NCBI RefSeq assembly: GCF_031759225.1
Contig: NZ_CP134494.1
Location: forward strand, 1,796,501 to 1,860,500
Length of the DNA: 64,000 nt
Direction of reading: 5' to 3'
From: Mesobacillus jeotgali
GTDB lineage: Bacteria; Bacillota; Bacilli; Bacillales; Cytobacillaceae
Each line of letters starts with the position of its first letter. Position 1 is the first letter of the stretch. Both the position numbers and the translations under genes were made by a program. Below are positions 15,481 through 45,416 of the stretch, piece by piece. The notes under the pieces are model-generated. The model worked only from the letters and a program-made list of their open reading frames with translations, was not told the DNA's origin and ran no database searches.

Positions 15481-15509
15481 TTGACTTTTTCCTATATACA
15501 CGTTATCTT
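15481..15509 (+). promoter_or_regulatory. candidate sigma-A promoter of the paa operon
   Basis: TTGACT (15481-15486), 17-bp spacer and TATCTT (15504-15509). An AT-rich TAAAAT/TATATA stretch just downstream could be an alternative -10. The operator palindrome lies about 40 bp further down, over the start-site or leader region. Confidence 0.5.
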
Positions 15510-15545
15510 TGTTTTAAAATATATAACACTTTTATTGTGTTACGG

Positions 15546-15563
15546 TTATATAACGTTATATAA
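15546..15563 (+). promoter_or_regulatory. 18-bp perfect palindrome, candidate aromatic-catabolism operator
   Basis: TTATATAACGTTATATAA is a perfect palindrome 33 bp before the paaK start. The same AATATAACGTTATATT core recurs at the ABC-importer promoter (31780-31795), and related elements occur at 35238-35277. Next to it lies a second inverted repeat, AACAC-N7-GTGTT (about 15525-15541). Candidate binders are PaaX, encoded at the operon end, or a TetR-type PaaR encoded elsewhere. Confidence 0.65.
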
Positions 15564-15595
15564 ATAAAATTTTATGTAATACAGGGGGCGAAATC

Positions 15596-16921
15596 TTGAT
15601 TTTACATGAAATCGAAACGAGCAGTCGTGAGGTCATTGAAGAAATTCAGCTCCATAGACTAAAAACAGTAGTTGAGAAAGTCGCTCAAAGGGTGCCGTTC
15701 TACAAGAAGAAATTTGAGGACGCGAATTTTTCTCCTGAAATGCTAAAGAGTCTGGAAGATTTGGAAGCGCTTCCTTTCACAGAAAAGCAGGATCTGCGGA
15801 ATCACTATTCTTTCGGGTTGTTCGCTGTTCCGCAAAGTGAATTGGTCAGGGTGCACGCCTCATCTGGAACAAGCGGGAAACCGACGGTGGTTGGCTATAC
15901 ACAAAATGATATTGACATGTGGGGAGAGATTGTCGCCAGGGCGATTGCACTTGCTGGTGGTAAACCAGGCAATTTCCTTCACAACGCTTATGGTTACGGG
16001 CTTTTTACCGGTGGATTGGGCCTGCATTACGGAAGTGAGAAACTGGGAATGGTGACAGTACCTGTTTCAGGCGGGAATACCCAGAGACAAATCATGTTAA
16101 TAGAAGATTTTAAACCGCAGGTCATTTGCGGGACACCTTCTTACATCCTGAATATCGCTGAAACGATGGAGGAAATGGGCAAGGACCCTCGTGACACTTC
16201 TTTAAAATACGGTATCTTCGGGGCTGAACCTTGGTCTGAAGAAATGAGAAGGACGCTAGAAGAAAAGCTCGGAATAAAGGCATGCGATATTTATGGACTG
16301 AGCGAAGTGATTGGGCCAGGTGTGGCAAATGAATGCCATGAAGCCCAGGCAGGACTCCATGTTGCTGAGGACCATTTTTATGTGGAAGTCATTGACCCTG
16401 ATACTTTGAAACCTGTAAAAGATGGGGAAGAAGGCGAACTGGTTTTTACCAGTTTGACAAAGGAAGCCTTTCCGATTATCCGCTACCGGACTGGAGACAT
16501 CGCTTCCCTGACTAAGGAAAAGTGCAGCTGCGGAAGGACAACAGTTAGAATGTCACGGGTCAAGGGACGGATTGATGACATGCTGATCATCAATGGAGTC
16601 AATGTCTTCCCTTCACAGATTGAACATTGCCTGCTGACAGTACCAGAACTTGCGCCACATTACCAGATTCAGATTTTACAGAAACGAACATTAAAGGTTC
16701 TTGAGCTGCATGTTGAGATGAATGAGGAATATTTCACGATGATCGGGGCGGATCCGATTTCTGATTCTGTCTATCAGCTCGAGCAGAGGATTCAGTCATT
16801 GCTCAGAAGCCAGTGCCTGATTTCGATGGAAGTGCGTGTGCATCGGCCAAAAACAATCCCGCGTTCAGAAGGAAAGGCAGTCCGGATTGTTGATAAAACA
16901 AAGGAACCGATTGGAACTTAA
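15596..16921 (+). CDS. paaK: phenylacetate-CoA ligase
   Basis: Activates phenylacetate to phenylacetyl-CoA with ATP, the entry step of the paa pathway. The 441-residue adenylate-forming enzyme has the P-loop-like ASSGTSGKPTVVGYT (residues about 85-99), the adenine segment DIYGLSEVIGPG, the hinge YRTGDIA and the C-terminal GRIDDMLIINGVNVFPSQIE characteristic of PaaK. The start is TTG at 15596, eight bases after AGGGGG. It leads the operon, 21 bp before paaA. Endogenous phenylacetyl-CoA from the downstream dehydrogenase complex would bypass this enzyme. Confidence 0.96.
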   Translation: MILHEIETSSREVIEEIQLHRLKTVVEKVAQRVPFYKKKFEDANFSPEMLKSLEDLEALPFTEKQDLRNHYSFGLFAVPQSELVRVHASSGTSGKPTVVGYTQNDIDMWGEIVARAIALAGGKPGNFLHNAYGYGLFTGGLGLHYGSEKLGMVTVPVSGGNTQRQIMLIEDFKPQVICGTPSYILNIAETMEEMGKDPRDTSLKYGIFGAEPWSEEMRRTLEEKLGIKACDIYGLSEVIGPGVANECHEAQAGLHVAEDHFYVEVIDPDTLKPVKDGEEGELVFTSLTKEAFPIIRYRTGDIASLTKEKCSCGRTTVRMSRVKGRIDDMLIINGVNVFPSQIEHCLLTVPELAPHYQIQILQKRTLKVLELHVEMNEEYFTMIGADPISDSVYQLEQRIQSLLRSQCLISMEVRVHRPKTIPRSEGKAVRIVDKTKEPIGT

Positions 16922-16942: not shown

Positions 16943-17902
16943 ATGGAAAACACAATTTCATTCGATCTGCTGACTGAAGAGGCGAAATATGAGCACTTCA
17001 TGAAGCGGATCGAAGCTGGCGATAAGATCGAAGCAGAAGATTGGATGCCGGATGACTATCGAATGACACTGATCAAGCTGATATCCATGCACGGGATCAG
17101 TGAAATAATGGGTGCGCTCCCTGAAAAGGAATGGGTGCCAAAAGCCCCTTCCTTGAAAAGAAAGCTTGGAATCATGGCCAAGGTACAGGATGAGATGGGC
17201 CACGGCCAACTTTTGCTGAGGGTAGCGGAGGATTTGATGAAGCCGCTCGGAAAATCACGCGAGAACATCATTCAGGACCTGCTTTCCGGCGACTTGAAAT
17301 TCCACAATGTCTTCCACATGGAGGCTAAAACATGGGGAGATGCCGGGTTGATTGGCTGGCTCGTCGATGGCGCCGCCATAATATCACAGACGAATATGCT
17401 TGATGCTTCCTATGGGCCATATGCAAGAGCGCTGAAGAGAATATGTGCCGAGGAGGTTTTCCACGCTCAGCATGGTGAGGCGATCATCATGGCGCTTGCA
17501 GAAGGAACAGATGAACAAAAAGCGATGATCCAGGATTCGATCGACCGATGGTGGGAAGCGCTTCTCATGTTCTTCGGTCCGGCGGATGCGTCTACTACAG
17601 GAACTTCCAAACAGGATACAACCATCAAATACAGGATCAGAACGAAAACGAACGAAGAGCTCCGCCAGGACTTTTTTACAAAATATATTCCAAGAGTCCT
17701 GTCACTTGGCTTGAAGCTGCCAGATGAGACGATGCATTTTGACCAGGAGTCAGGCATGTGGCAATACAAGCAGCCAGATTGGAGCAAGTTCAAACAAATC
17801 ATCAAGAATAATGGGCCGAAATCAAAGGATCGCTTAAGGCTGAGGGAAATCTCCTACAGTAACAATAAGTGGGTCATCGACGCATTAAGCGCTAAAGCTT
17901 AA
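16943..17902 (+). CDS. paaA: 1,2-phenylacetyl-CoA epoxidase, catalytic subunit A
   Basis: PaaA is the di-iron oxygenase subunit that epoxidises the ring of phenylacetyl-CoA. The 319-residue protein shows the ferritin-like ligand pattern: Glu in MAKVQDEMGHGQ (ExxH) and CAEEVFHAQHGE (ExxH). AAGGAGGTAAG precedes the ATG. The stop overlaps by one base an ATG of an in-frame extension of paaB, so translation of the A-B-C-D genes is tightly coupled. It partners with PaaC in a stable heteromer. Confidence 0.97.
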   Translation: MENTISFDLLTEEAKYEHFMKRIEAGDKIEAEDWMPDDYRMTLIKLISMHGISEIMGALPEKEWVPKAPSLKRKLGIMAKVQDEMGHGQLLLRVAEDLMKPLGKSRENIIQDLLSGDLKFHNVFHMEAKTWGDAGLIGWLVDGAAIISQTNMLDASYGPYARALKRICAEEVFHAQHGEAIIMALAEGTDEQKAMIQDSIDRWWEALLMFFGPADASTTGTSKQDTTIKYRIRTKTNEELRQDFFTKYIPRVLSLGLKLPDETMHFDQESGMWQYKQPDWSKFKQIIKNNGPKSKDRLRLREISYSNNKWVIDALSAKA

Positions 17903-17961
17903 TGCAGCTAGAAAACGTTATAGAAACAGTCCAGGAATATCACCGGAAAGGAGAGAGGACC

Positions 17962-18309
17962 ATGTCTGGGAGTGGATTTTATCAGGAGTTCGAAGTCTTC
18001 AGCAAAAGGACGACAACTTCCCCGATGCAGTACCAGTTCTCACTGCTGGCGCCGAACCATGAGCTGGCCCTTGTGATGGCGCAGGAAAATTTCATGAGAC
18101 GGGAGCCGGTTGCCGATATTTGGGTCATCAAGCGCGATGATGTCAGAAAGATGTCGCTTGAAGAGAGGCAAACATTGCAAAGGCTTGATAATAAGGATTA
18201 CAGGAATACGAAAGGCTATGGCTATTTGAAAAAGAAATGGCGCCACTACGAGCAGGAAATGCTTGATGAAAAAGAGATCTTGTCATGGGGAGGGAAGCAG
18301 GAGAAATGA
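17962..18309 (+). CDS. paaB: phenylacetyl-CoA epoxidase subunit B
   Basis: Small non-catalytic subunit that bridges PaaAC units. I choose ATG 17962 (MSGSGFYQEFEVFSK, 115 residues), because AAAGGAGAGAGG lies just upstream. An in-frame ATG at 17902 would add 20 atypical residues. The core FYQEFEVFSKRTTTSPMQYQFSL and YGYLKKKWRHYEQE are typical of the family. The stop overlaps the paaC start (ATGA). Confidence 0.93.
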   Translation: MSGSGFYQEFEVFSKRTTTSPMQYQFSLLAPNHELALVMAQENFMRREPVADIWVIKRDDVRKMSLEERQTLQRLDNKDYRNTKGYGYLKKKWRHYEQEMLDEKEILSWGGKQEK

Positions 18310-19124
18310 AATATGAACTTGAAGATGCATTGAAAAATGAAGCCCTTCGCGACGCTGCAGTTGAGCTCCTGTTCCAGCTCGCCGATGATGATTTCATGAT
18401 TGCCTACCGAGGCTCAGAATGGCTTGGGCTTGCCCCTCATATTGAAGAGGACGTCGCTTTTTCCTCAATCAGCCAGGATACAATGGGCCACGCAGCTATG
18501 TTCTATCAGCTTCTAAGTGACCTGGGAGCAGGGGATCCCGACGAGCTTGCCCATGCAAGGCAGTCAGCAGAACGGAAGAATGCGATATTACTAGAAAAAG
18601 TGAACGGACCGGGTACGTATTTGACCGAACCGCATTATGACTGGGCATTGGCGGTAGTAAGGAACTATTTTTACGCACAGGCCAAGAAAGTGAAAATAGA
18701 ATCGCTGAAAAATTCCTCCTACCAGCCATTGGCGGAGGCAGCAGTCAAAGTCAATATGGAACTTTACTACCATCTATTGCACTGGAAGACTTGGTTCTCC
18801 CAGCTTGTGAGTGCCGGTGGAGAGGCAAGGGCAAGAATGGAAGAAGCAATGGCAAAAGTGTTTGATGAACTTGAAGGGCTGTTCTCCATGGGTGATCGGG
18901 CCGAAGAGTTCACAGAGCATCATTTGATAGATTCAGAGGAAACTTTAAGGACGAGATGGATGCAAATGATGTCACCTGTTTTTGAAAGCCTGGCTCTCAA
19001 GATGCCGGAACAATTCGGAATGAAAAGCGGAAATGGGCGAAACGGCGAGCATACAGCTGATTTGCAGGCTGCTTTGGATACTTTGGGCGAGGTCTATAGC
19101 TTCGATCCGGCAGCGAGCTGGTGA
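18306..19124 (+). CDS. paaC: phenylacetyl-CoA epoxidase structural subunit C
   Basis: PaaC is a ferritin-fold paralogue of PaaA that has lost the iron site and stabilises it. The 272-residue protein begins MKYELEDALKNEALRD at ATG 18306, overlapping the paaB stop. Typical segments are AYRGSEWLGLAPHIEEDVAFSSISQDTMGHA and MELYYHLLHWKTWF. An in-frame ATG at 18285 is possible but less likely. The next gene starts 7 bases after the stop. Confidence 0.95.
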   Translation: MKYELEDALKNEALRDAAVELLFQLADDDFMIAYRGSEWLGLAPHIEEDVAFSSISQDTMGHAAMFYQLLSDLGAGDPDELAHARQSAERKNAILLEKVNGPGTYLTEPHYDWALAVVRNYFYAQAKKVKIESLKNSSYQPLAEAAVKVNMELYYHLLHWKTWFSQLVSAGGEARARMEEAMAKVFDELEGLFSMGDRAEEFTEHHLIDSEETLRTRWMQMMSPVFESLALKMPEQFGMKSGNGRNGEHTADLQAALDTLGEVYSFDPAASW

Positions 19125-19130
19125 TGACTG

Positions 19131-19613
19131 ATGCTGAGAGATAAAGTCATCGAAGCCTTGCAAACTGTGAAGGATCCTGAGATTGACAGTGTATCGATTA
19201 CTGAACTGGGTATGCTCGAAGAACTCGAAATCAATCCTGAAGGAGTCTTGATAAAGCTTTTGCCTACCTTCATGGGCTGCCCTGCGCTTGATATCATCAA
19301 AAACAATGTTGTCAAAGCGGTATCATCCATTGATGGAGTTGAAAAAGTGGATGTAAAATTCATTTTCCATCCTCCATGGACTTCAGACAGGGTGACTGAG
19401 CTGGGCAGGGAAAAGCTGAAGGAATTCGGCATCGCTCCGCCGCCAAGGCATATTGCAGAGACTGGTGAGTGGCAAGCCGATTGCCCATACTGCGGCTCCA
19501 CCTATACGACAATGGAAAATCTCTTTGGTCCGACTGCCTGCCGCAGTATCCTGTACTGCAAGTCATGCAAAAACCCATTCGAAGCAATGAAACCAGTATC
19601 AACTTTGATGTGA
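19131..19613 (+). CDS. paaD: phenylacetyl-CoA epoxidase maturation protein PaaD (MIP18/DUF59 family)
   Basis: PaaD is thought to help assemble or mature the epoxidase di-iron centre or its electron chain. The 160-residue protein has an N-terminal MIP18 domain (VKDPEIDSVSITELGMLEEL, MGCPALDIIKNNV) and a C-terminal zinc-ribbon-like region with CPYCGS, CRS and CKSCKNPFEAMKP. It starts 6 bases after paaC stops. No paaE reductase follows, unlike in E. coli. Confidence 0.95.
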   Translation: MLRDKVIEALQTVKDPEIDSVSITELGMLEELEINPEGVLIKLLPTFMGCPALDIIKNNVVKAVSSIDGVEKVDVKFIFHPPWTSDRVTELGREKLKEFGIAPPPRHIAETGEWQADCPYCGSTYTTMENLFGPTACRSILYCKSCKNPFEAMKPVSTLM

Positions 19614-19730: not shown

Positions 19731-20039
19731 ATGGTAAAACTAATCGCGATTTATAAGCATCCACAGGACAAAGAGGCATTTGACAAGCACTATTTTGAAA
19801 CACACGCTCCACTGACTGCAAAAATCCCGGGACTTCGCAAAATGGAAGTGACTCGCATCGTCGGCAGCCCAATGGGTGGCGAAGGCAAATACTATTTAAT
19901 GTGTGAAATGTACTATGACGACCATGAAGCATTAAAAGCTGGGATGAAATCTGCTGAAGGCAGAGCTTCTGGAAAGGATGTTATGAGCTTTGCGGGTGAT
20001 CTGGTCACAATGATGATCGGTGAAGAAGTGAATGAATAA
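19731..20039 (+). CDS. EthD-family protein within the paa operon
   Basis: A 102-residue dimeric alpha+beta barrel protein of the EthD family (MVKLIAIYKHPQDKEAFDKHY, the ETHAPLTAKIPGLRKMEV motif with its conserved His-Ala-Pro). ATG at 19731 follows AAAAGGGAGAG. The family includes methylmuconolactone isomerase-like enzymes and proteins of unknown role in ring degradation. It overlaps the next gene by 8 bases, so it belongs to the operon. The role is unknown; it could act on an unstable ring-opened intermediate or a side product. Confidence 0.82.
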   Translation: MVKLIAIYKHPQDKEAFDKHYFETHAPLTAKIPGLRKMEVTRIVGSPMGGEGKYYLMCEMYYDDHEALKAGMKSAEGRASGKDVMSFAGDLVTMMIGEEVNE

Positions 20040-20811
20040 CAACTATGAAATGATCGAAACGACTGTAAAAGGACAAATCGGATTAATCGAGCTTAATCGC
20101 CCGAAGGTCCTGAATGCCCTGAACAGGCAAATGGTTTCTGAGGTTCTTTCCGCTATGGAAGCATACGACAATGATCCCTCAGTTAAGGTCATTGTCCTCG
20201 CCGGAAAAGGAAGGGCATTCGCTGCGGGCGCAGATATCGATGAAATGATGGACGCTGATGCCATCAGCATGGAAACATTGAATCAGTTCACCGACTGGGA
20301 CCGGATTGCCTGGATCAAGAAACCTGTTATCGGCGCAGTCCACGGATTTGCTCTGGGCGGTGCATTCGAACTGGCCCTATGTTGCGATATGCTGTTCGCT
20401 GCTGATAATGCGGAGTTTGGGTTTCCAGAAGTCAATCTTGGTGTGATGCCTGGAGCAGGCGGTACCCAGAGACTGACAAAGCTCGTCGGTAAAACGAAGG
20501 CGATGGAATGGATCCTCAGCGGCAAGCGCATTACCGCAAAAGAGGCCTTGCATTATGGAATCATCAATTCGACTTTTGCAGAGGAAGTATTGATGGAAGA
20601 AACAATGAAGTTTGCGGATACAATTGCAAAACAGGCGCCAATTGCCGTCAGGCTGATCAAGGAATCTGTCCTGAAAGCGGTCGATTACCCTTTATACGAA
20701 GGCATGCAATATGAGCGCAAAAACTTTTATATGCTTTTTGCGACAGAAGATCAGAAGGAAGGCATGAGGGCTTTCAAAGAAAAACGAAAGCCAGAATTTA
20801 AAGGGAAATAA
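20032..20811 (+). CDS. paaF: enoyl-CoA hydratase, 2,3-dehydroadipyl-CoA hydratase PaaF
   Basis: A 259-residue crotonase-fold protein. Both catalytic glutamates of true hydratases are present, in GGAFELALCCD and GFPEVNLG, followed by [10 protein letters not shown]. The oxyanion-hole segment is GRAFAAGADI. It is translationally coupled to the EthD gene and precedes paaG by 14 bases. Assignment to PaaF rests on this operon position and on the complete active site. Confidence 0.88.
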   Translation: MNNNYEMIETTVKGQIGLIELNRPKVLNALNRQMVSEVLSAMEAYDNDPSVKVIVLAGKGRAFAAGADIDEMMDADAISMETLNQFTDWDRIAWIKKPVIGAVHGFALGGAFELALCCDMLFAADNAEFGFPEVNLGVMPGAGGTQRLTKLVGKTKAMEWILSGKRITAKEALHYGIINSTFAEEVLMEETMKFADTIAKQAPIAVRLIKESVLKAVDYPLYEGMQYERKNFYMLFATEDQKEGMRAFKEKRKPEFKGK

Positions 20812-20825
20812 GGGGGTACATAGCT

Positions 20826-21599
20826 GTGTTTGAAACCGTTTTATATGAAGTGCGGAATCAGGTAGCCTACATCACCCTGAACCGCCCTGATAAATTGAAT
20901 GCCTTCACTCAGCAGTTGAACAAGGAAATCCAGAGTGCCATCAAGTCTGCTTCTCGCGATAAAGACGTAAGGGCACTGGTTATCACAGGTGCAGGCAGAG
21001 CTTTTTGCTCGGGGGAGGACCTGGCAGGTGTATCCGATGAGATGGACCATGGCGAAGTGCTTCGCAAACGCTATAATCCAATGCTGCTGGAACTTGATCG
21101 TTGTGAAAAGCCGGTGATAGCAGCTGTCAATGGTGTGGCGGCAGGAGCGGGGATGAGCCTTGCGCTCGCCTGTGATTTCCGGATTGCTTCCGAAAAAGCT
21201 AGTTTTGTAGAAGCGTTTATCCATGTCGGCCTTGTTCCGGATGCCGGCAATCTGTATTATCTTCCACGGCTCATCGGCCATGCGAAAGCGATGGAGCTTG
21301 CTGTATTCGGGGAGAAGATAGCGGCAGATAAGGCAAAGGATCTTGGGCTGGTTACGGAAGTCTATTCATTTGACAACTGGAACGACCATGTCGCTTCATT
21401 TGCAGAAAGACTGGCCAATATGCCAACAAAGGCAATCGGGCTGATTAAAAGGAATTTAAAGGCAAGCTGGCATTCTAACCTAGAAGACTATCTGGAGAGG
21501 GACGCCCAGAGCCAGAGGATTGCCGGGCAGACCGTCGACCATAAGGAAGGCGTCCAGGCATTCATGGAAAAAAGAAAACCCTTATTTAAAGGTGAATAA
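20826..21599 (+). CDS. paaG: 1,2-epoxyphenylacetyl-CoA isomerase PaaG
   Basis: PaaG converts the ring epoxide to the oxepin and later shifts a double bond. The 257-residue crotonase lacks the first hydratase glutamate (GAGMSLALACD) and carries an aspartate in IHVGLVPDAGNLYYLPRLIG, the PaaG-type acid in an isomerase active site. GTG start behind AAGGGGG. It lies between paaF and the aldehyde dehydrogenase. Confidence 0.9.
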   Translation: MFETVLYEVRNQVAYITLNRPDKLNAFTQQLNKEIQSAIKSASRDKDVRALVITGAGRAFCSGEDLAGVSDEMDHGEVLRKRYNPMLLELDRCEKPVIAAVNGVAAGAGMSLALACDFRIASEKASFVEAFIHVGLVPDAGNLYYLPRLIGHAKAMELAVFGEKIAADKAKDLGLVTEVYSFDNWNDHVASFAERLANMPTKAIGLIKRNLKASWHSNLEDYLERDAQSQRIAGQTVDHKEGVQAFMEKRKPLFKGE

Positions 21600-21635
21600 G
21601 AGAAGTATTCAATCTACTAAAAGGAGATGTTACGC

Positions 21636-23153
21636 GTGACAACAGTAAAAGAGCAAAAATTCGAAGCAATGGCAGTAAAACGCGAGACATATCAATTGAT
21701 CATCAATGGAGTTCGCCAGGACAGTGTAAATGGTGAAACATACAAAGTGTACAATCCGGCGACAGGTGCGGAAGTTGCAACTGTGGCGAAGGCTTCAAAA
21801 GAAGATGCAGAGCTTGCAGTCCAGGCGGCCAGAAATGCGTTCGACTTCGGAAAGTGGCGTCATTTCCCTGTGAACAAGCGCTCCCGAACACTGAATAAAA
21901 TCGCTTCTATTATGCGTTCCCGGTTCAATGAGCTCGTAGAGTTGGAGATTCTTGATACAGGTAAATCACTCGCTGCAGCACAGGGACAGGTAATGCAGGC
22001 AATCGAGGACTTTGAATTTTACGCAGGAGCCATCGTCAGCCACCGTGGTGCAGTAAACAGCATGCCTGGTGCATTCCAGAATATCACCGAAAAAGAGCCT
22101 GTCGGCGTTTGTGCCCAGATTATTCCGTGGAACTATCCTATGATGATGGCAGCATGGAAAATCGCTCCGGCAATCGCAGTCGGCTGTTCGGTTGTTGTAA
22201 AACCAGCTTCATTAACACCTTTGTCTGCCATTGTCCTTGGTGAGATTTGTATTGAAGCAGGCGTTCCGGAAGGCGTAGTGAATGTCATTCCTGGTTCAGG
22301 TTCTGTTGTCGGCAACTATCTTGTTGAACATGAAAAAGTCGACAAAGTTGCGTTCACAGGATCTACGCCAATCGGCAAGGATATCATGGCGAGAGCTTCC
22401 CAAACCCTAAAGCGCGTGACTCTTGAACTTGGCGGAAAGTCACCGAGCATCGTTTTTGAAGATGCGGATGTTGATGCTGCAGTAGCGGGCTCGCTATTCG
22501 GGATCTTCTACAATACAGGACAATCATGCGAAGCTCGTTCGCGTTTGTATGTACATGAAGATGTCTACGATGAGTTCATCGAGAAATTCGTAGCAAAAAC
22601 AAAGCAGCTTAAGCTTGGCAACCCTTTTGATAAAGAAACGCATGTTGGTGCTGTCATCAGCCAGGACCAAATGGATGTCATCGACGGCTATGTGAAATCT
22701 GCGGTTGAAGATGGAGCACAAGTTCTGACGGGCGGTAAGGCTGCGAATCTGGAAGGCTATGAAAATGGCTTCTGGTATGAGCCTACCATCATCGCTGAAA
22801 CAGATCACAGCATGAAGGCTGTAAAAGAAGAAATCTTCGGGCCAGTAGTCGTGGTCATGAAATTCAAGGATGAAAAGGAAGCTGTCAAACTGGCAAATGA
22901 CAGTGAGTATGGACTTGGGTCTGCGATCTGGACAAAGGACTACGGCCGTGCTACAAGGGTTTCAAAGCAAATCCAGGCAGGTATCGTCATGATCAACTGC
23001 CCGTTCTCCGCTTTCCCTGGAACACCGTTCGGAGGCTACAAGCAATCCGGGTTCGGCCGTGAACTTTGCATCGAAACACTTGATTTATATACAGAAACAA
23101 AGAGTATCGTCTCTTACTACGGCAGCCGCCCGCTAAATCCGTTTAACGTCTAA
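21636..23153 (+). CDS. aldehyde dehydrogenase of the paa operon (PaaZ N-domain equivalent or phenylacetaldehyde dehydrogenase)
   Basis: A 505-residue NAD(P)-dependent aldehyde dehydrogenase starting at GTG 21636, nine bases after AAGGAG. Rossmann segment FTGSTPIGKDI, catalytic glutamate in LELGGKSP and nucleophilic cysteine in NTGQSCEARSR are present. There is no MaoC/hydratase domain, so it can supply only the dehydrogenase half of PaaZ (oxidising the ring-opened semialdehyde). A role as phenylacetaldehyde dehydrogenase is the alternative. A terminator hairpin directly follows, splitting the operon. Confidence 0.85.
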   Translation: MTTVKEQKFEAMAVKRETYQLIINGVRQDSVNGETYKVYNPATGAEVATVAKASKEDAELAVQAARNAFDFGKWRHFPVNKRSRTLNKIASIMRSRFNELVELEILDTGKSLAAAQGQVMQAIEDFEFYAGAIVSHRGAVNSMPGAFQNITEKEPVGVCAQIIPWNYPMMMAAWKIAPAIAVGCSVVVKPASLTPLSAIVLGEICIEAGVPEGVVNVIPGSGSVVGNYLVEHEKVDKVAFTGSTPIGKDIMARASQTLKRVTLELGGKSPSIVFEDADVDAAVAGSLFGIFYNTGQSCEARSRLYVHEDVYDEFIEKFVAKTKQLKLGNPFDKETHVGAVISQDQMDVIDGYVKSAVEDGAQVLTGGKAANLEGYENGFWYEPTIIAETDHSMKAVKEEIFGPVVVVMKFKDEKEAVKLANDSEYGLGSAIWTKDYGRATRVSKQIQAGIVMINCPFSAFPGTPFGGYKQSGFGRELCIETLDLYTETKSIVSYYGSRPLNPFNV

Positions 23154-23159
23154 TCACGA

Positions 23160-23192
23160 GGCGAGCACTCTATGATCCGGGTGCTCGCCTTT
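23160..23192 (+). terminator. hairpin terminator inside the paa cluster
   Basis: Perfect 9-bp GC-rich arms GGCGAGCAC and GTGCTCGCC with a 12-nt loop and a short TTTC tail. It probably gives partial termination between the aldehyde dehydrogenase and paaH. Confidence 0.65.
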
Positions 23193-23219
23193 CATTTTTA
23201 AGAACAGGGGGACTATATA

Positions 23220-24083
23220 ATGAAGAAACTCGTCGTAATCGGTTCTGGCGTTATGGGCAGAGGTATCGCATATGTCAGCTGCCTTGGCGGATTTGAGACC
23301 GTACTGATTGATGTTGAAGAAAAACAACTTCAAAACGCGGAACAGGAAATCAACAGCATTTTTGATAAAGGGATTGCCCGCGGTAAAGTGACGCTAGACG
23401 ATGCTGAAACTGCCAAAGCAAGATTAAAATATTCAAACTTCCTTGCCGAGAATGTCAAGGATGCAGATTTGATTATTGAGGCGGTACCTGAAAAGCTAGA
23501 TATCAAGAAAACTATTTTCGAAGTGATTGACCAGCACGCACCGGAACATTGTCTGTTTGCGTCCAATACCTCAACAATGAGCCCGACGGAAATCGCTTCT
23601 TTTACGAAGCGCCCTGAAAAGGTCATTGCGATGCATTTCTTTAACCCGGTGCATAAAATGCCGCTTGTTGAAATCATCCGCGGTCTTGAAACGAGCGATG
23701 AAACAGCAGAAACAATCCAGAATGCTGCAATCCAAATGGGAAAGGAAACTGTCATCATCAATGAGTTTCCTGGCTTTGTCACAAGCCGGATCAGCGCGCT
23801 TGTTGGCAATGAGGCATTTTACATGCTTCAGGAAGGATTAGGCTCGCCAGAAGATATCGACAAAGCCATCAAGCTTGGGTTGAATTACCCGATGGGCCCA
23901 TTCGAATTGGGCGATTTGGTAGGTCTTGATACACGCTTGAATAATTTGAAATACCTGCATGAGAAGCTCGGTGAAAAATATCGCCCGGCTCCATTGCTAG
24001 AGCAATATGTAAAAGCAGGCCGCCTTGGCAGGAAGACCGGGCGCGGTGTGTACGATTATAGAGAGTCAGTTACCACGAAATAA
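23220..24083 (+). CDS. paaH: 3-hydroxyadipyl-CoA dehydrogenase PaaH
   Basis: NAD-dependent 3-hydroxyacyl-CoA dehydrogenase. The 287-residue protein has the N-terminal Rossmann motif GSGVMGRGIAYV, the catalytic region MHFFNPVHKMPLVEII, and the C-terminal helical domain (YPMGPFELGDLVGLDT). AGGGGGAC precedes the ATG. The next gene begins 12 bases later, and together they form the PaaH-PaaJ beta-oxidation steps. Confidence 0.92.
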   Translation: MKKLVVIGSGVMGRGIAYVSCLGGFETVLIDVEEKQLQNAEQEINSIFDKGIARGKVTLDDAETAKARLKYSNFLAENVKDADLIIEAVPEKLDIKKTIFEVIDQHAPEHCLFASNTSTMSPTEIASFTKRPEKVIAMHFFNPVHKMPLVEIIRGLETSDETAETIQNAAIQMGKETVIINEFPGFVTSRISALVGNEAFYMLQEGLGSPEDIDKAIKLGLNYPMGPFELGDLVGLDTRLNNLKYLHEKLGEKYRPAPLLEQYVKAGRLGRKTGRGVYDYRESVTTK

Positions 24084-24095
24084 AGGGGGATGGCA

Positions 24096-35758: not shown

Positions 35759-36865
35759 ATGGATATGTTCGAACAAATTCGTGAGCATGAGCAAGTAGTT
35801 TTTTGTAATGATGAAGCAACGGGTCTTAAGGCGATTATTGCAATCCATAGTACTCGGCTGGGGCCGGCTTTGGGCGGTTGCCGTATGTACCCTTATAAAT
35901 CAGTTGACGATGCACTTGAAGATGTACTGCGTCTTTCCAAAGGCATGACGTATAAATGTGCTGCGGCTGACGTCGACTTCGGCGGAGGGAAGGCTGTCAT
36001 CATTGGCGATCCTACAAAGGATAAGAGTCCAGAATTATTCAGGGCATTTGGCCAGTTTGTAGAGTCGATCCAGGGCCGTTTTTATACAGGAACAGACATG
36101 GGGACAGATCCTGAGGACTTTGTCCATGCACTAAAAGAAACGAATTGCATCGTTGGGGTCGATGAAGTTTATGGCGGCAGCGGTGATTCTTCAGTACCAA
36201 CGGCTCAAGGCGTCATCTTTGGCTTGCAGGCAACGAGCAAGGCGCTTTGGGATACGGATGATTTGTCAGGGAAATCCTATGCGATCCAGGGTCTGGGCAA
36301 GGTTGGCTATAAGGTAGCAGAGTACCTGCTTGAAAATGGGGCAGACCTTTATGTAACCGACATCAACCAGAAAGCAATCGACCAGATTGTTCAGAAAGCC
36401 AAGGAAATGGGAGCGGGCATCAAGGTCGTAAACAGTGATGAAATCTATTCCCAGCCTGCAGACATTTTCATTCCGTGCGCAATGGGCGGAATCATTAACG
36501 ATGAGACGATTCCCCAGCTTCAGGTCAAAGCGGTGGTTGGGTCAGCGAACAATCAGCTCAAAGAAGAAAGGCACGGCCACATCCTTCAGGAGAAAGGCAT
36601 TCTTTATGCGCCTGATTACATCGTCAATGCTGGCGGATTGATCCAGGTAGCGGATGAGCTATATTCACCAAATAAGGAACGAGTCTTAAAGAAGACGAAG
36701 GCAATCTATAATTCTCTTTTAAATATTTACAGGCAGGCAGAGAGTGAAGGAATCACCACTGTTGAAGCGGCGAATAAATTCTGCGAAAACCGCATCGAAG
36801 CCAGAACAAGACGCAATAGCTTCTTCTCGCATATGAAGCGTCCTAAATGGGCAGTGAGGATGTAA
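35759..36865 (+). CDS. pdh: phenylalanine dehydrogenase
   Basis: NAD-dependent oxidative deamination of L-phenylalanine to phenylpyruvate. The 368-residue GLFV dehydrogenase has [13 protein letters not shown], catalytic lysines in [17 protein letters not shown] (K66 and K78), Asp113 in GTDMGTD and the NAD-binding [13 protein letters not shown]. The specificity pair is Gly111 (YTGTDMGT) and Leu in [11 protein letters not shown], as in known phenylalanine dehydrogenases; leucine dehydrogenase has Ala and Val there. ATG 35759 follows AAAGGGGGAAAG. It precedes the E1/E2 genes by about 30 bases. Confidence 0.92.
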
Positions 36866-36898: not shown

Positions 36899-37966
36899 AT
36901 GGAAAAGGATTTTCCGATTTTTCAAGTGATGGACCAAAACGGAAACATTGTGTCTGAGGAATATAAAGATTTGGTGACTGAGGAACGAGTGAAGAAGTTT
37001 TATTCCGAAATGGTAAGGATCCGGACGCTGGACAGGAAATCGATCAGTCTCCAGCGGCAGGGCAGAATTGGAACATATGCGCCTTTTGAAGGGCAGGAAG
37101 CATCCCAGGTAGGAACGGCTCTTGCGCTTGACAGTGAAGATTGGATGTTCCCAACCTACCGCGATCATGGTGCGGCAACTGTGTTTGGCCACTCCTTGAG
37201 AAATATTTTACTGTTCTGGAACGGGCGGAACGAGGGGTGTGTGCCGCCGGATGGAAAAAAAATCTTCCCGCCGGCTATACCAATCGCCACACAAATTCCG
37301 CACGCAGCTGGTGCTGCTTTTGCAGAAAAACAAAAAGGAACAAGGAATGCGGCCATTTGTTATTTCGGTGATGGAGCGACTTCGGAAGGGGACTTTCATG
37401 AAGGCTTGAATTTTGCCAGCGTCTTCAAATCTCCAGTCGTCTATTTTTGCCAGAATAATCAATACGCGATATCCGTCCCAATCAGTAAACAAATGAATTC
37501 CGCAACGATCGCTCAAAAATCGCTGGCTTATGATATTCCAGGTGTGAGAGTGGATGGAAATGATGTTTTTGCTGTTTTTGCTGAAACGGAAAAGGCGTTG
37601 GAACGTGCACGAAATGGCGAAGGCCCGACACTGATTGAAGCAATGACGTGGCGGTATGGATCCCATACAACCGCCGATGATGCTACAAAATATCGTGACC
37701 AGGGCGAGAGTGCACTCAAACGAATGGAAACTGATCCTTTGCTAAGGCTGGAACGCTGGCTGAAAAATGAAGGACTTTACGATGAAGCATGGGTGAAGGA
37801 AGTAGAAGAGCAGGCTGCTGCAGAAATTGACGCAGCTGTACAGGAAATGGAGAAGTTCCCTAAAGCCGACCCGGCCGTGATTTTTGACTATGTCTTTGAG
37901 AAGCCTACATGGACAATTGAGAAGCAAAAACGGGAGTACCTTGAACTGATCGGAGGTGAAGCATGA
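36899..37966 (+). CDS. 2-oxoacid dehydrogenase E1 alpha subunit
   Basis: A 355-residue thiamine-diphosphate-dependent E1 alpha. The cofactor motif GDGATSEGDFHEGLNFA begins at residue 157 and ends in CQNNQYAIS. The active-site loop is WRYGSHTTADD. ATG lies after AAAAAGGGTGAGCCG. Sequence style is of the PdhA/BkdA group, but placement directly after phenylalanine dehydrogenase suggests phenylpyruvate (or other aryl/branched 2-oxoacids) as substrate. The stop overlaps the E1 beta start. Confidence 0.9.
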   Translation: MEKDFPIFQVMDQNGNIVSEEYKDLVTEERVKKFYSEMVRIRTLDRKSISLQRQGRIGTYAPFEGQEASQVGTALALDSEDWMFPTYRDHGAATVFGHSLRNILLFWNGRNEGCVPPDGKKIFPPAIPIATQIPHAAGAAFAEKQKGTRNAAICYFGDGATSEGDFHEGLNFASVFKSPVVYFCQNNQYAISVPISKQMNSATIAQKSLAYDIPGVRVDGNDVFAVFAETEKALERARNGEGPTLIEAMTWRYGSHTTADDATKYRDQGESALKRMETDPLLRLERWLKNEGLYDEAWVKEVEEQAAAEIDAAVQEMEKFPKADPAVIFDYVFEKPTWTIEKQKREYLELIGGEA

Positions 37967-38961
37967 TGGAAACAGCACTTCAGACAAAGACCTTGACCCT
38001 TGTCCAGGCGATCACCGATGGACTTGATACGATGCTTGGTGAAAGCAAGGAGGTCATCCTTCTTGGCGAAGATATCGGAAAAAATGGCGGGGTATTCCGT
38101 GCAACTGATGGCCTTCAGGAAAAGTATGGAGAGGATCGCGTCATTGACACTCCTTTAAGTGAAGCAGGTTTCGTCGGTGCAGCAATCGGCATGGCAGTGA
38201 ATGGGTTCCGGCCAGTTGTGGAAATCCAGTTCCTGGGATTCATCTATCCTGCCTATGAACAAATCATGACCCATGCTTCAAGACTTCGGATGAGAACAAT
38301 GGGCCATTATACGGTGCCGATGGTAATCCGGGCCCCATATGGCGCAGGTGTCCGCGCACCTGAAATTCATTGTGACAGCACGGAGTCACTTTTTACTCAT
38401 ATGCCGGGAATGAAGGTAGTTTGTCCGTCCAATGCCTATGACGCAAAAGGCTTGATGATCGCTGCAATTGAAGACCCGGATCCTGTCCTCTTTTTAGAAC
38501 CGATGAGAAGTTATCGTTCCTCACGGGGTGAGGTTCCGGAAGGGAAGTATACGGTTGAAATAGGAAAAGGAAAGAAATTGACTGAAGGTGAAGATGTGAC
38601 AGTCATTTCCTGGGGAGCCATGGTTCCGGTTGCGATGAAGGCTGCAGAAGAGATGAAACAAAAAGGTGTCAATTGTGAGGTCCTTGATTTAAGGACACTC
38701 TATCCAATCGACAAGGACCTTGTCATAGAGTCAGTCCAGAAGACTGGCCGAACGGTGATTGTCCATGAAGCTCATGCGACAGGAGGCACTGGCAGTGATT
38801 TGATTTCATTGATCAATGATGAGGCATTCCTTTACCAAAAGGCTCCTGCAGAAAGAGTGACAGGCTATGATACGCCTGTGCCGTATTTCGGGTTTGAAGA
38901 TCATTATCTGCCGACGCCGAAAAGAGTCGCAGCTGCAATAGAGAAAGTAATGAAGTTTTAG
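37963..38961 (+). CDS. 2-oxoacid dehydrogenase E1 beta subunit
   Basis: A 332-residue transketolase-like beta subunit. Typical segments are LLGEDIGKNGGVFRATDGL, DTPLSEAGFVGAAIGMA, EIQFLGFIYPAYEQI and RAPYGAGVRAPEIHCDSTES. Two adjacent ATG codons (37963, 37966) lie after GGAGGTG; the first overlaps the alpha stop as ATGA. It should form the alpha2-beta2 E1 heterotetramer with the preceding product. Confidence 0.9.
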   Translation: MMETALQTKTLTLVQAITDGLDTMLGESKEVILLGEDIGKNGGVFRATDGLQEKYGEDRVIDTPLSEAGFVGAAIGMAVNGFRPVVEIQFLGFIYPAYEQIMTHASRLRMRTMGHYTVPMVIRAPYGAGVRAPEIHCDSTESLFTHMPGMKVVCPSNAYDAKGLMIAAIEDPDPVLFLEPMRSYRSSRGEVPEGKYTVEIGKGKKLTEGEDVTVISWGAMVPVAMKAAEEMKQKGVNCEVLDLRTLYPIDKDLVIESVQKTGRTVIVHEAHATGGTGSDLISLINDEAFLYQKAPAERVTGYDTPVPYFGFEDHYLPTPKRVAAAIEKVMKF

Positions 38962-38972
38962 GAGGCGTGCCG

Positions 38973-40292
38973 ATGGTTGAAGTAAAGCTCCACGACATTG
39001 GGGAAGGCATGACCGAAGCGGACATCAACTGTTACCTGGTGAAGCCGGGGGACTTCGTCAAAGCGGATGATCCATTGGTGGAGGTCCAGACAGACAAGAT
39101 GACCGCAGAGATTCCTGCTCCCCGCTCAGGTGTAATTAAAGAATTGCTGTTATCACCGGGGCAAACGGTACAAGTGGGGACTACCCTGCTGGTCATGGAA
39201 GACCGTTCCGGCGGAGATCATTCAGCAGAGTTCCAAAAGGGAACTCACATTGTAAAAAATGAAGCCGAACCTGCGGTTGCTGTATTGGACAGACCCGCTC
39301 AAGTTAGGGTCCCTGTTGGTGTGAGTGCAAGGTTAGGACAAATTCTTGCATCTCCTTATACAAGGAAAGTTGCCAGGGAAAACGGTGTCAATATAATGGA
39401 AGTCAAGGGAACAGGTCCAGCCGGCCGGATCATCGAAGAGGATATATTGGCCTTTGTTAAATTAAAAGAGGCTGGGGTTGCGAACACTTCGAAACCTGGT
39501 TTCGAGCATCAGGTTCCGAATGTTTCAGAAGCAGGTTCCGAACTGCAGGCTCCGACGCTTTCGGAAGCAGGTTCCGAAGAACATGATTCCGGCGTCCACA
39601 AGGATACATTGCCATTCCGCGGCCGCCGGAAGCAGATTGCGAAAAAGATGGTCCAGTCCCTTTACACCATCCCTCACTGCACACATTTTGAGGAAATTGA
39701 TGTTAGCGAGTTGATCGCTTTAAGGGAAGAAATCAAGGCAGCCGGAAACTCTATTTCTGCTACTGCTTTCTTCATCAAAGCTCTTTCCATTGGGTTAAAA
39801 GAGTTCCCTGTTTTTAATGCGAAGCTTGATGAAGAGAATGAGAGCATCCAGCTGCTGCGTGAACATCATATCGGAATTGCCGTGGACACTCCGGATGGCT
39901 TGATTGTACCGGTTATCCGCAATGTGGAGAAAATGAACTTGAAGCAAATCCATGGTGAAATGAAGCGTCTGACAAAGCTTGCACTTGATGACAAGTTAAC
40001 GGTCAAGGATATTTCAGGCGGAACATTCACGATAAGCAATGTCGGTCCGCTGGGCGGCAGCATTGGTGCTACACCAATCATCCAGCATCCGCAGACAGCG
40101 CTTGTTTCCTTCCATAAAACAAAGAAACGGCCAGTTGTCACGGATCAAGATGAAATTGCCATCCGTTCTATCATGAATCTGTCAATGGCGTTTGACCATA
40201 GAGTCGCAGACGGGGCTACGGCTGTTGCTTTTACCAACCGTTTCGCACAGCTGATTGAAAACCCGAAAATGATGCTGTTGGAATTAATGTAG
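38973..40292 (+). CDS. dihydrolipoyl acyltransferase E2
   Basis: A 439-residue E2 core of the complex. One lipoyl domain (residues 1-77) has the lipoylated Lys42 in QTDKMTAEI. A peripheral subunit-binding domain follows (ASPYTRKVARENGVNIMEVKGTGPAGRI), then a linker with two near-copies of a VSEAGSE unit, then the catalytic domain ending in the AFDHRVADG active-site histidine motif. The start is ATG 38973, six bases after AGGAGG; an in-frame GTG at 38967 touches the ribosome binding site. No E3 (lipoamide dehydrogenase) gene is present, so E3 must be shared. Confidence 0.92.
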   Translation: MVEVKLHDIGEGMTEADINCYLVKPGDFVKADDPLVEVQTDKMTAEIPAPRSGVIKELLLSPGQTVQVGTTLLVMEDRSGGDHSAEFQKGTHIVKNEAEPAVAVLDRPAQVRVPVGVSARLGQILASPYTRKVARENGVNIMEVKGTGPAGRIIEEDILAFVKLKEAGVANTSKPGFEHQVPNVSEAGSELQAPTLSEAGSEEHDSGVHKDTLPFRGRRKQIAKKMVQSLYTIPHCTHFEEIDVSELIALREEIKAAGNSISATAFFIKALSIGLKEFPVFNAKLDEENESIQLLREHHIGIAVDTPDGLIVPVIRNVEKMNLKQIHGEMKRLTKLALDDKLTVKDISGGTFTISNVGPLGGSIGATPIIQHPQTALVSFHKTKKRPVVTDQDEIAIRSIMNLSMAFDHRVADGATAVAFTNRFAQLIENPKMMLLELM

Positions 40293-43311: not shown

Positions 43312-43319
43312 GTGATTTC

Positions 43320-44243
43320 ATGAAATTTATTACGTTTACGAAAAAAGACGGAAAAGTGAGTGCAGGGTGGATCAATTCACGGAATGAAGCTGTCGATATG
43401 CAAGAAGCATCAGACGGAACGTTGCCTGATAATATGCTGGCATTCATTGAAAACCAAGAGCATTTTATGGAATACCTTGAAAACAAAAAGGCCCTCATTG
43501 AGACAGGGAATGGGACTTTACCACTTGAAGAAGTCACCTTGAAAGCGCCGCTGCCTAATCCGAAGAGCGTCCGGGATTTTTACGCATTTGAGCAGCATGT
43601 GAAAACAGCCAGGGAGAACCGAGGCCTTGAAATGATTCCTGAATGGTATGAGATCCCGGTGTTCTATTTTACCAACCATCTTGCCATCAAGGGGCCAGAG
43701 GAAGAAATCAGGCGGCCGCAAAACTGCGAGTGGCTCGATTATGAACTGGAGATCGCCTGTGTCATCGGCAAGGAAGGCCGGAATATCAAGGCTGAGGATG
43801 CTGAAAAACATATTTTTGGCTTTTTTATCATGAATGACTGGAGTGCCCGTGATCTGCAGCGGAAGGAAATGAAGGTCGGACTTGGTCCGGCGAAGGGCAA
43901 GGATTTTGCGACATCCTTCGGTCCCTACCTGGTCACGAAGGATGAATTGATGTCCCGCAAATCTGCGAAAGGCTTTGATTTGCAAATGATAGCAAGGGTG
44001 AATGGGAAAGAGCTTTCGAGCGGAAATGTGAAGGATCTCTATTATTCCTTCGGCGAGATGATTGAGCGTGCTTCCGCAGGGACGACACTGTATCCGGGAG
44101 AGGTAATCGGCTCAGGTACAGTGGGAACAGGATGTATCCTCGAATTGGGTACAGATGTTTACCGCTGGCTCGAGCCCGGAGATGAAGTAGAACTTGAGAT
44201 TGAAGAGCTTGGTGTCCTGAGAAATAAAATTATTCAAGACTAG
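43320..44243 (+). CDS. fumarylacetoacetate hydrolase family protein
   Basis: A 307-residue FAH-family hydrolase. The C-terminal catalytic fold has the acidic metal-binding pattern (WLDYELEIACVIGKEG; FFIMNDWSARDLQRKE) and GEVIGSGTVGTGCILE. It should split fumarylacetoacetate, or maleylacetoacetate directly, since no maleylacetoacetate isomerase is in the cluster. ATG lies 8 bases after the previous stop. Confidence 0.87.
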   Translation: MKFITFTKKDGKVSAGWINSRNEAVDMQEASDGTLPDNMLAFIENQEHFMEYLENKKALIETGNGTLPLEEVTLKAPLPNPKSVRDFYAFEQHVKTARENRGLEMIPEWYEIPVFYFTNHLAIKGPEEEIRRPQNCEWLDYELEIACVIGKEGRNIKAEDAEKHIFGFFIMNDWSARDLQRKEMKVGLGPAKGKDFATSFGPYLVTKDELMSRKSAKGFDLQMIARVNGKELSSGNVKDLYYSFGEMIERASAGTTLYPGEVIGSGTVGTGCILELGTDVYRWLEPGDEVELEIEELGVLRNKIIQD

Positions 44244-44258
44244 AAAGAAGGTGTTTAT

Positions 44259-45416
44259 ATGTATTACCGCCAGCTGGGAGAAATCCCGAAGAAACGCCAT
44301 ACGATTTTTAAAAAGGAAGACGGTTCGCTATTCCGCGAGCAGGTAATGGGAACGAAAGGCTTTTCCGGCACGCAGTCAATCCTTTATCATCACCATATGC
44401 CGACAGAGGTAGTGAAAAGTGAATTGATCGGCAGTTACATGCCTGAATATGAGGAACAGGAATCACTGAACCACAGGCACTTCTTAACCGACCAGATTGC
44501 GAAAACAGGGGATGCTTTAAGCGGGAGGGAATATATACTTGGTAATGATGATCTCCTGATTGGGTTTGCGAATATCAATGAACCAATGAAGCTATTCTAC
44601 CGGAATGGTGATGGAGATGAGATGTTCTTTTTCCATCATGGCTCCGGCAAGGTGGAAACAATGTTCGGTACATTGAACTATCGCCCAGGTGACTATGTGG
44701 TAATCCCGATCGGGACGATATATCGTGTGGTGCCAGATGATTCAGAAATGACTAAAGCGCTGATTGTGGAATCGTTCAGCCAGATCACGACTCCTCGTCG
44801 CTATCGAAATGAATATGGGCAGCTGCTCGAGCATAGTCCATTCTGTGAACGTGATATCCGCGGACCGGAAACACTCGAAACTTTCTCTGAAAAAGGGGAG
44901 CATGAGGTGATCACCAAGACACGGGGCCATCTGCATCGCCATGTGTTGAACCATCACCCGCTGGATGTTGTCGGCTGGGATGGCTATCTGTATCCATGGG
45001 CTTTCAATATTGAGGACTTCGAGCCAATTACTGGACGGATCCATCAGCCGCCTCCGGTCCACCAGACGTTCGAAGGCCATAACTATGTGGTATGTTCCTT
45101 CGTGCCAAGGTTATACGACTACCATCCTGAAGCGATTCCTGCTCCATATTACCACAGCAATGTGAACAGTGATGAGCTGCTGTACTATGTGGAGGGCAAC
45201 TTCATGAGCCGCAAAGGAATCAAGGAAGGGTCGATTACATTGCATCCAAGCGGAATCCCGCACGGGCCGCATCCGGGCAAGACAGAAGCAAGCATCGGGA
45301 AAAAAGAAACTTTGGAGCTTGCTGTCATGATCGATACATTCCGCCCGTTGAAAACGGTAAAGAAATCCAAGGAAATCGAAGACAACCAGTATATGTATAC
45401 CTGGATAGAAAAATAA
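44259..45416 (+). CDS. hmgA: homogentisate 1,2-dioxygenase
   Basis: Opens the homogentisate ring to maleylacetoacetate using Fe(II). The 385-residue cupin protein has GDGDEMFFFHHGSGKVET in the N-terminal cupin and, near the end, the iron-site region YYHSNVNSDELLYYVEGNF followed by HPSGIPHGPHPG. ATG follows AGAAAGAAGG. It is last in the operon and closed by a strong terminator. Confidence 0.93.
   Translation: MYYRQLGEIPKKRHTIFKKEDGSLFREQVMGTKGFSGTQSILYHHHMPTEVVKSELIGSYMPEYEEQESLNHRHFLTDQIAKTGDALSGREYILGNDDLLIGFANINEPMKLFYRNGDGDEMFFFHHGSGKVETMFGTLNYRPGDYVVIPIGTIYRVVPDDSEMTKALIVESFSQITTPRRYRNEYGQLLEHSPFCERDIRGPETLETFSEKGEHEVITKTRGHLHRHVLNHHPLDVVGWDGYLYPWAFNIEDFEPITGRIHQPPPVHQTFEGHNYVVCSFVPRLYDYHPEAIPAPYYHSNVNSDELLYYVEGNFMSRKGIKEGSITLHPSGIPHGPHPGKTEASIGKKETLELAVMIDTFRPLKTVKKSKEIEDNQYMYTWIEK

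Follow-up and report, generated by a model that had tools for sequence, protein, structure and literature searches.

The stretch of DNA analysed here, hereafter the window, comprises 64,000 nucleotides (positions 1796501-1860500) of the single-contig, 4,634,919-base genome of Mesobacillus jeotgali, and contains a row of five genes that we interpret as part of a phenylalanine catabolic system. The row (35290-40292, + strand; Table 1), in which gaps are short or genes overlap, encodes an FlK-family thioesterase, phenylalanine dehydrogenase (PheDH) and the E1alpha, E1beta and E2 components of a 2-oxoacid dehydrogenase complex; 9 kb away lies a paa operon (15596-27089) containing paaK, paaABCD, lower-pathway genes and paaX. 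A first-pass annotation of this DNA had described PheDH followed by E1alpha, E1beta and E2 without E3, with paa genes 9 kb upstream, and gene calls and profile searches bear this out. Not recorded there were the FlK gene that starts the row, a TrpX-type importer, and a stop codon in the gene for 4-hydroxyphenylpyruvate dioxygenase.

The last three genes of the row have the make-up of an alpha2beta2-type 2-oxoacid dehydrogenase, a complex whose active site lies between two chains. E1alpha contains the GDG...NN thiamine pyrophosphate (TPP) motif, E2 has lipoyl, peripheral-subunit-binding and catalytic domains, and E1beta adjoins E1alpha in 80/80 of the loci compared. These are the best 80 of 592 confirmed candidates in the genome collection, not a random sample; each was fetched with a 10-kb flank, and genes were labelled by best BLAST match to the proteins of the window and of the pyruvate dehydrogenase (PDH) and branched-chain 2-oxoacid dehydrogenase (BKD) complexes, with some labels checked by hidden Markov model (HMM). 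The E1alpha shares 97% identity with its counterpart in Bacillus sp. ISL-45 and 93% with the one in Mesobacillus subterraneus. No E3 gene was found in the 64-kb window, so the operon does not carry its own, and when the genome was searched for a relocated orthologue with the E3 from L050, a near relative, only the Lpd proteins of the PDH (39%) and BKD (38%) operons matched. Different complexes often share one E3, so a missing E3 does not exclude membership of this class.

PheDH, for which an ATG at 35759 is the likelier start, is 71% identical to a PheDH-type gene product of Bacillus badius (L084), which we take to be the characterised enzyme. BLAST sets it apart from the leucine dehydrogenase (LeuDH) of the same genome, and it is distinct from both other ELFV genes. 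Neither PheDH (395.5 bits) nor the LeuDH (442.5 bits) reaches the cut-off of 600 for the TrpDH model NF035922, and among solved structures compared with PheDH the top score went to a LeuDH, 6acf, with the listed PheDH entries (1bw9 and others) lower.

Elsewhere the genome is already equipped for the usual substrates of such complexes. Besides SucA it holds three genes for an E1alpha of this type; a fifth, weak match (25 bits) falls in a gene read as transketolase. One of the other E1alpha genes belongs to a PDH operon (E1alpha, E1beta, E2, Lpd) and one to a BKD operon (ptb, a LeuDH-type gene, buk, lpd, E1alpha, E1beta, E2); Ptb, Buk and both Lpd proteins score above their HMM cut-offs. The three ELFV genes are one read as glutamate dehydrogenase, the LeuDH-type gene of the BKD operon, and PheDH; the genome thus pairs LeuDH with BKD and, in parallel, PheDH with the present complex. 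Since both operons are present, and the BKD E1alpha occurs in 60/61 family genomes searched, a third complex is not needed for pyruvate or branched-chain substrates. In a tree of E1alpha plus E1beta, the 81 members cluster together (support 0.83) and separately from 18 PDH sequences, a grouping favoured by the choice of those members for similarity to the query; the complex does not group with BKD E1 either, and has no linkage to ptb or buk. Alternative routes from phenylalanine were also sought. The first-pass annotation found neither a phenylalanine hydroxylase nor a phenylpyruvate decarboxylase in the window, and both absences extend to the whole genome: PF00351 has no match (only Caulobacter was positive among 14 control genomes), and the three proteins matching PF02776 (TPP_enzyme_N) are two acetolactate synthases and MenD.

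One E1alpha position also sets the group apart from the BKD and PDH sequences aligned, without being diagnostic. Residue 59 is Thr in 81/81 members of the alignment, and Phe in 31/31 BKD and 19/19 PDH sequences, the latter count having been made after two PDH-like E1 (L173, L174) were set apart beforehand. Through alignments of BKD with the human chain and of BKD with the window's E1alpha, T59 corresponds to Phe85 of the human branched-chain 2-oxoacid dehydrogenase alpha chain, which a docking study places among the residues that hold the branched side chain (PMC12655727). T59 would be expected to widen the substrate pocket. Some family members have a further PDH-like E1alpha-E1beta-E2 row without E3 (L175, L176, L177), followed by a GlcD-like gene, which in L175 scores 366 bits with the GlcD model, under its cut-off of 568.

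Conservation among relatives ties the complex to both PheDH and the paa pathway. We surveyed 151 genomes of the family, defining an E1alpha orthologue by at least 60% identity; these genomes are related, and significance values are only descriptive. Some E1alpha is found in all 151, a close orthologue in 69 (counting G031, with a match of 180 residues, as present), PaaA in 77 and PheDH in 70 (a 55% match in G011 having been excluded by hand). The orthologue and PaaA occur together in 68 genomes, the orthologue only in 1, which is 66% complete, PaaA only in 9, and neither in 73; for the orthologue and PheDH the corresponding numbers are 68, 1, 2 and 80. In a mixed genus (g24), all three are present in the same 3/27 genomes. 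The association of PheDH-E1-E2 with paa genes raised in the first-pass annotation recurs as co-occurrence (orthologue with PaaA in 68/69 genomes, with PheDH in 68/69). PaaA-E1alpha distances, which cover 29 of the 68 genomes with both, are 7-20 kb in 27, 51 kb in one and 2.1 Mb in one; G061 and G092, where separate contigs carry the two genes, are outside this count. Two discordant family genomes were inspected, one having PheDH (66%) without a nearby E1alpha (L204) and the other paa-E1-E2-E3 without PheDH (L205).

The 80 best loci show the same linkage at closer range. E2 follows in 78 and E3 in 56, and the flank includes PheDH in 66, FlK in 61 and the binding protein of the ABC importer in 47. 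PheDH is separated from E1alpha by 10-105 bp in 62/66 loci, the other four gaps being 170, 364, 459 and 3027 bp. At least one of PaaK/A/B/C/D/X is present in 63/80, a lower bound given the 10-kb flank; in L045, for example, paaA is about 21 kb away and outside it. In B. badius NBRC 15713 (L084), a strain of a species noted for its PheDH, the order is PheDH-E1-E2-E3 with paa genes upstream. Phylum-wide, under a strict cut-off, 7/398 genomes match; two belong to the same genus, and the remaining five match at 56% (four) or 51% (one). One match from another class (L201) has E1alpha and E1beta, but neither PheDH nor a paa gene was seen in the stretch fetched around them. In Paenisporosarcina, the FlK gene sits between two PheDH-type genes (L098 at 7117-9985, and L124). 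Records titled Chryseobacterium sp. ISL-80 (L048) and Pseudomonas sp. ISL-84 (L052) carry typical Bacillaceae islands, so these species names are probably wrong.

In addition to gene linkage, we identified a palindromic operator shared by the row and the paa genes. A 42-bp motif refined from the promoters of FlK/PheDH operons (n=70, 69 loci plus the window) is carried by 46/70, the window's included. When the window was scanned with this motif, its own site (with the reverse reading of the same site) and the sites before paaK and the ABC importer scored above the maximum of -4.5 in ten shuffled windows; no site above the shuffles lies in front of the homogentisate genes. In the 80 loci, the 22-bp half exceeds 10.5 bits at 84 sites, and one shuffle per locus put 3/80 loci above that value. 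These sites precede FlK (47), PheDH (4), the ABC gene (13), paaA (4), the FabK-like gene (3), paaX (2) and, directly, E1alpha (1), with 10 elsewhere. Upstream stretches of paaK/paaA from 20 relatives contain a site above 12 bits in 16 (11/12 with paaK, 5/8 without), and in L117, where no PheDH or FlK gene was found in the fetched stretch, the operator lies 83 bp before E1alpha.

Across the 4.63 Mb genome, matches to this element fall at four distinct places of the island and at one outside it. The pattern was built from three window sites, with the place before paaX excluded, though it had already been seen in an earlier window scan. Allowing up to 2 mismatches, it matches six times, and once when read backwards: the six are the three source sites, one reverse reading, the paaX site and one match outside the island, which adjoins a gene read as a chemoreceptor. 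Allowing up to 3 mismatches in the window, there are 7 matches against 0.08 expected, five being source sites and reverse readings and the remaining two lying before paaX and before the FabK-like gene. By the position weight matrix (PWM) half alone, the paaX site scores 6.2 bits, inside the shuffle range; the half-site before the FabK-like gene, at 30523, has 3 mismatches and 11.3 bits. Since PaaX is the regulator recognised inside the paa cluster, it is the natural, and most likely, candidate to bind this operator. In E. coli, PaaX responds to phenylacetyl-CoA (PMC9493321).

Within the lower paa genes, the thiolase scores above the pcaF cut-off and the 3-hydroxyacyl-CoA dehydrogenase above that of NF006722; the hydratase-type and aldehyde dehydrogenase genes fall under the cut-offs of the models listed, the second hydratase-type gene matching best the PaaG model TIGR02280 (274.7, cut-off 345). 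The FabK-like flavoprotein is kept beside paaX in 54/59 loci having PaaX, and is a candidate electron donor for the PaaABCD epoxidase, there being no PaaE reductase in the paa cluster. The binding protein of the ABC importer scores 287.5 bits with NF041285, under the cut-off of 390, and has PDB relatives 6hni, 3lkv and 3lft; the importer probably takes up aromatic amino acids. Between paaX and a peptidase S58 gene lies a 52-bp tandem repeat (27155-28029, 16.8 copies, 87% matches).

Table 1. Genes and operator sites of the island in the window.
Feature	Position	Strand	Evidence or remark
Operator-like palindromic site, paaK promoter	15538..15559	-	7.2 bits with the 42-bp motif
PaaK, phenylacetate-CoA ligase	15596..16921	+	TIGR02155, 629 bits, just below cut-off 646
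PaaA, PaaB, PaaC, PaaD, phenylacetyl-CoA epoxidase	16943..19613	+	TIGR02156/02157/02158/02159, all above cut-off
Lower paa genes	20032..26081	+	Two enoyl-CoA hydratase-type, aldehyde dehydrogenase, 3-hydroxyacyl-CoA dehydrogenase, 3-oxoadipyl-CoA thiolase, enoyl-CoA hydratase-type
PaaX regulator	26118..27089	+	TIGR02277, 346.9 bits, cut-off 264.6; match from residue 37; conserved start near 26226
Operator-like site before conserved paaX start	26165..26186	-	2 mismatches to a pattern derived from other sites
FabK-like/nitronate-monooxygenase flavoprotein	30555..31502	+	PF03060
Operator-like site before ABC importer	31782..31803	-	1.0 bits with the 42-bp motif
ABC importer (TrpX-type binding protein, permease, ATPase)	31953..34770	+	Binding protein PF04392; permease and ATPase named from sequence
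Operator of the FlK-PheDH-E1-E2 operon	35236..35277	+	Overlaps -10 box; best site of the window, 60 bits
FlK-family hotdog acyl-CoA thioesterase	35290..35697	+	PF22636, 114.7 bits; first gene of the row
Phenylalanine dehydrogenase (PheDH)	35714..36865	+	ELFV dehydrogenase
E1alpha of 2-oxoacid dehydrogenase complex	36899..37966	+	TIGR03181, 477.6, cut-off 411.4
E1beta	37963..38961	+	4 bp overlap with E1alpha
E2 (lipoyl, E3-binding and acyltransferase domains)	38967..40292	+	PF00364, PF02817, PF00198; DHR catalytic motif
Homogentisate-side genes	40420-45416		Broken 4-hydroxyphenylpyruvate dioxygenase, HisC-type aminotransferase, flavin reductase, FAH-family, HmgA-like

Downstream of the row, homogentisate genes are present, as the first-pass annotation had noted, but the 4-hydroxyphenylpyruvate dioxygenase gene is broken and the promoter carries no operator above shuffles. 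That gene (40420-41535) contains an in-frame stop at 40513-40515 and is full length in 21/21 relatives where it was found; this probably leaves the strain without an active tyrosine-homogentisate branch, unless the stop base is a sequencing error. The FAH-family and HmgA-like genes match their families under the curated cut-offs.

We consider it highly probable that the locus is a phenylalanine catabolic system in which an arylpyruvate dehydrogenase complex, here acting on phenylpyruvate, feeds phenylacetyl-CoA to the paa pathway. A dedicated E1-E2 step from phenylpyruvate to phenylacetyl-CoA was proposed in the first-pass annotation, and gene order, co-occurrence, the shared operator, the lack of alternative enzymes and the separate PDH and BKD operons, all observed, support it; the identities of substrate and product are what we infer from them. 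Linkage and regulation carry this judgement, rather than the PheDH assignment, which leans on the comparison with B. badius. Two qualities claimed for the island need revision: it is not complete by itself, given that the window has no E3 and no PaaE match, and its arrangement is not peculiar to this genome, being common in Bacillaceae and allied families.

The pathway would run as follows. The ABC importer would take in phenylalanine, which PheDH, by its family assignment, would oxidize with NAD+ to phenylpyruvate. The TPP-dependent E1alpha2beta2 would decarboxylate phenylpyruvate and load the arylacetyl group onto the E2 lipoyl domain, from which E2 would transfer it to CoA, giving phenylacetyl-CoA; E3 would be supplied by the PDH or BKD operon in this genome, and in most relatives examined is encoded directly downstream. 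Epoxidation by PaaABCD and the lower paa enzymes would then cleave the ring, with acetyl-CoA and succinyl-CoA as products. Such an oxidative route would deliver the CoA ester with one extra NADH (two with the deamination) and spare the ATP of PaaK, which would be kept for external phenylacetate. The FlK thioesterase is a probable valve, freeing CoA when phenylacetyl-CoA accumulates. The common operator, for which PaaX is the likeliest binder and phenylacetyl-CoA the likeliest releasing ligand, would join the importer, PheDH-E1-E2, paa and paaX in one regulon.

Several observations weigh against this interpretation. Among the best 80 loci, the flank is without PheDH in 14 and without a core paa gene in 17; PaaA and E1alpha lie 51 kb apart in one genome and 2.1 Mb in another; and PaaA is present in 9/82 genomes without the orthologue, so paa does not need the complex. 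In 24/70 promoters the operator PWM picks up no good site, and 4/20 paa upstream stretches have no site above 9 bits. The PaaX of E. coli recognises another sequence, TGATTC-N27-GAATCA (PMC9493321), which makes PaaX as the binder here a guess. PaaE (TIGR02160) has no match in the window, and its best match in the genome, outside the window, reaches 114 bits where the cut-off is 421. Thr at position 59 also occurs in other PDH-like E1 (L173-L177, L201), and for this reason we rejected T59 as proof of aromatic specificity. Finally, E1alpha passes the NCBIfam model for pyruvate dehydrogenase E1alpha (TIGR03181, 477.6; cut-off 411.4), so that NCBIfam would name it pyruvate dehydrogenase. These last two observations would suit a second pyruvate or branched-chain oxoacid dehydrogenase lying by chance beside PheDH, yet both complexes already exist as operons, the co-occurrence with PheDH and PaaA is near-perfect, and the operator is common with paa. 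We rejected a second PDH or BKD given those operons and the linkage with paa, and rate such an origin as very improbable.

Another use of the same reaction would be biosynthetic, with phenylacetyl-CoA made as a primer or acyl donor, as is thought for PglB/C in phenylglycine formation in Streptomyces (PMC7089894). A FabK-like protein and a thioesterase do lie nearby, but no biosynthetic cluster was recognised among the genes at 13.8-47 kb of the window, and linkage and regulation tie the complex to a degradation operon, making this the most remote of the alternatives.

Relatives linked to hpa genes raise the question of which aromatic oxoacid is used. Seven loci (Halobacillus, Salibacterium, Salsuginibacillus) form the sister group of the rest in the E1alpha+E1beta tree (support 0.969), and no PheDH was found in their flanks. 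In L088, the one checked by HMM, a HisC-type aminotransferase precedes E1alpha, and HpaG-N, HpaG-C and HpaE, all above cut-offs, follow, with an HpaF-like isomerase, under cut-off, also downstream. Three loci of the main group are similar. In L099 (Oceanobacillus), HpaG-N and HpaG-C, above cut-off, and HpaD- and HpaF-like genes lie about 5 kb before FlK-PheDH-E1-E2, with no paa gene in the flank; in L111 HpaG-C is above cut-off; and in L098 the FlK-PheDH-E1-E2 row is preceded by paaX and followed by HpaG-N, HpaG-C and an HpaF-like gene. The hpa genes serve 4-hydroxyphenylacetate breakdown, the pathway for the tyrosine analogue, which makes aromatic oxoacids the common thread and counts in favour of an arylpyruvate complex. 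Beside hpa-type complexes we also observed an esterase like short-chain polyhydroxyalkanoate depolymerases, under the model cut-off (L088 14877-15737, L118 14664-15566); it could act as a 4-hydroxyphenylacetyl-CoA thioesterase in place of FlK.

These loci, together with the resemblance of the importer binding protein to TrpX, fit a complex whose preferred substrate is a different aromatic oxoacid (4-hydroxyphenylpyruvate or indolepyruvate), or a broad-range arylpyruvate dehydrogenase with phenylpyruvate as one substrate among several. In the window, PheDH is the neighbour, and the operator joins PheDH to paa and not to the homogentisate genes, so we regard this as unlikely for the present complex, if less so than the other alternatives. 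For the clade at large, we see an even chance that lipoyl-dependent arylpyruvate dehydrogenases are a major aerobic route by which Bacillaceae and allied families degrade aromatic amino acids. This route would have two outlets: phenylalanine through phenylacetyl-CoA to paa, and tyrosine through 4-hydroxyphenylacetyl-CoA, freed by FlK or the esterase-type thioesterase, to homoprotocatechuate (hpa). As part of this equally balanced proposal, both outlets would flank one complex in Paenisporosarcina and some Sporosarcina (L098 being the locus checked by HMM).

If phenylpyruvate is indeed the substrate, the locus would give PheDH, an enzyme used in biotechnology and phenylalanine tests, a physiological role in bacilli, and would define an aerobic route that leads from phenylalanine to phenylacetyl-CoA and saves ATP. 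E1 proteins of this kind would likely be mislabelled as pyruvate dehydrogenase (the model naming was checked for the window's protein), and the E1-E2 genes would be candidate phenylpyruvate-specific parts for phenylacetyl-CoA production. In the open-licence PMC literature, with subscription papers outside our scope, we found no description of a catabolic, lipoyl-type, paa-linked complex, and no paper pairing the name "phenylpyruvate dehydrogenase" with phenylacetyl-CoA; a PheDH cluster is reported in Rhodococcus ruber Chol-4, and the excerpt of that report makes no mention of such a complex (PMC6498646). The reaction itself is a known one, most likely represented here by a lipoyl-type catabolic variant that is common in Bacillaceae and allied families and is likely mislabelled.

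Among known systems, the nearest in layout is the Bacillus BKD operon (ptb-bcd-buk-lpdV-bkdAA-bkdAB-bkdB), in which an amino acid dehydrogenase of the same family accompanies E1alpha-E1beta-E2, and deamination is followed by oxidative decarboxylation to a CoA ester. The present row differs in having PheDH in place of LeuDH, a separate E1 clade, no ptb or buk, and linkage to paa, and the genome carries both sets. By sequence, the top-scoring solved E1alpha and E1beta are those of bacterial PDH (1w85, 3duf), which we take to be from Geobacillus stearothermophilus; here the Phe of the pocket column is Thr, and the clade is separate from the PDH of the same genomes. The aerobic route through phenylacetaldehyde, phenylacetate and PaaK shares the starting phenylpyruvate, the end product and the lower paa pathway, but needs a decarboxylase, which was not found in this genome, an aldehyde dehydrogenase and ATP. 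PglB/PglC of pristinamycin phenylglycine synthesis in Streptomyces, likened here by description and not by sequence, are a PDH-like complex proposed to convert phenylpyruvate to phenylacetyl-CoA (PMC7089894), in an actinomycete biosynthetic cluster and by a pathway only suggested there. The anaerobic 2-oxoacid:ferredoxin oxidoreductases IorAB and VOR also make phenylacetyl-CoA from phenylpyruvate (PMC9765128, PMC13290082), yet they are ferredoxin enzymes without a lipoyl E2, whereas the complex described here pairs a TPP-dependent E1 with a lipoyl E2.

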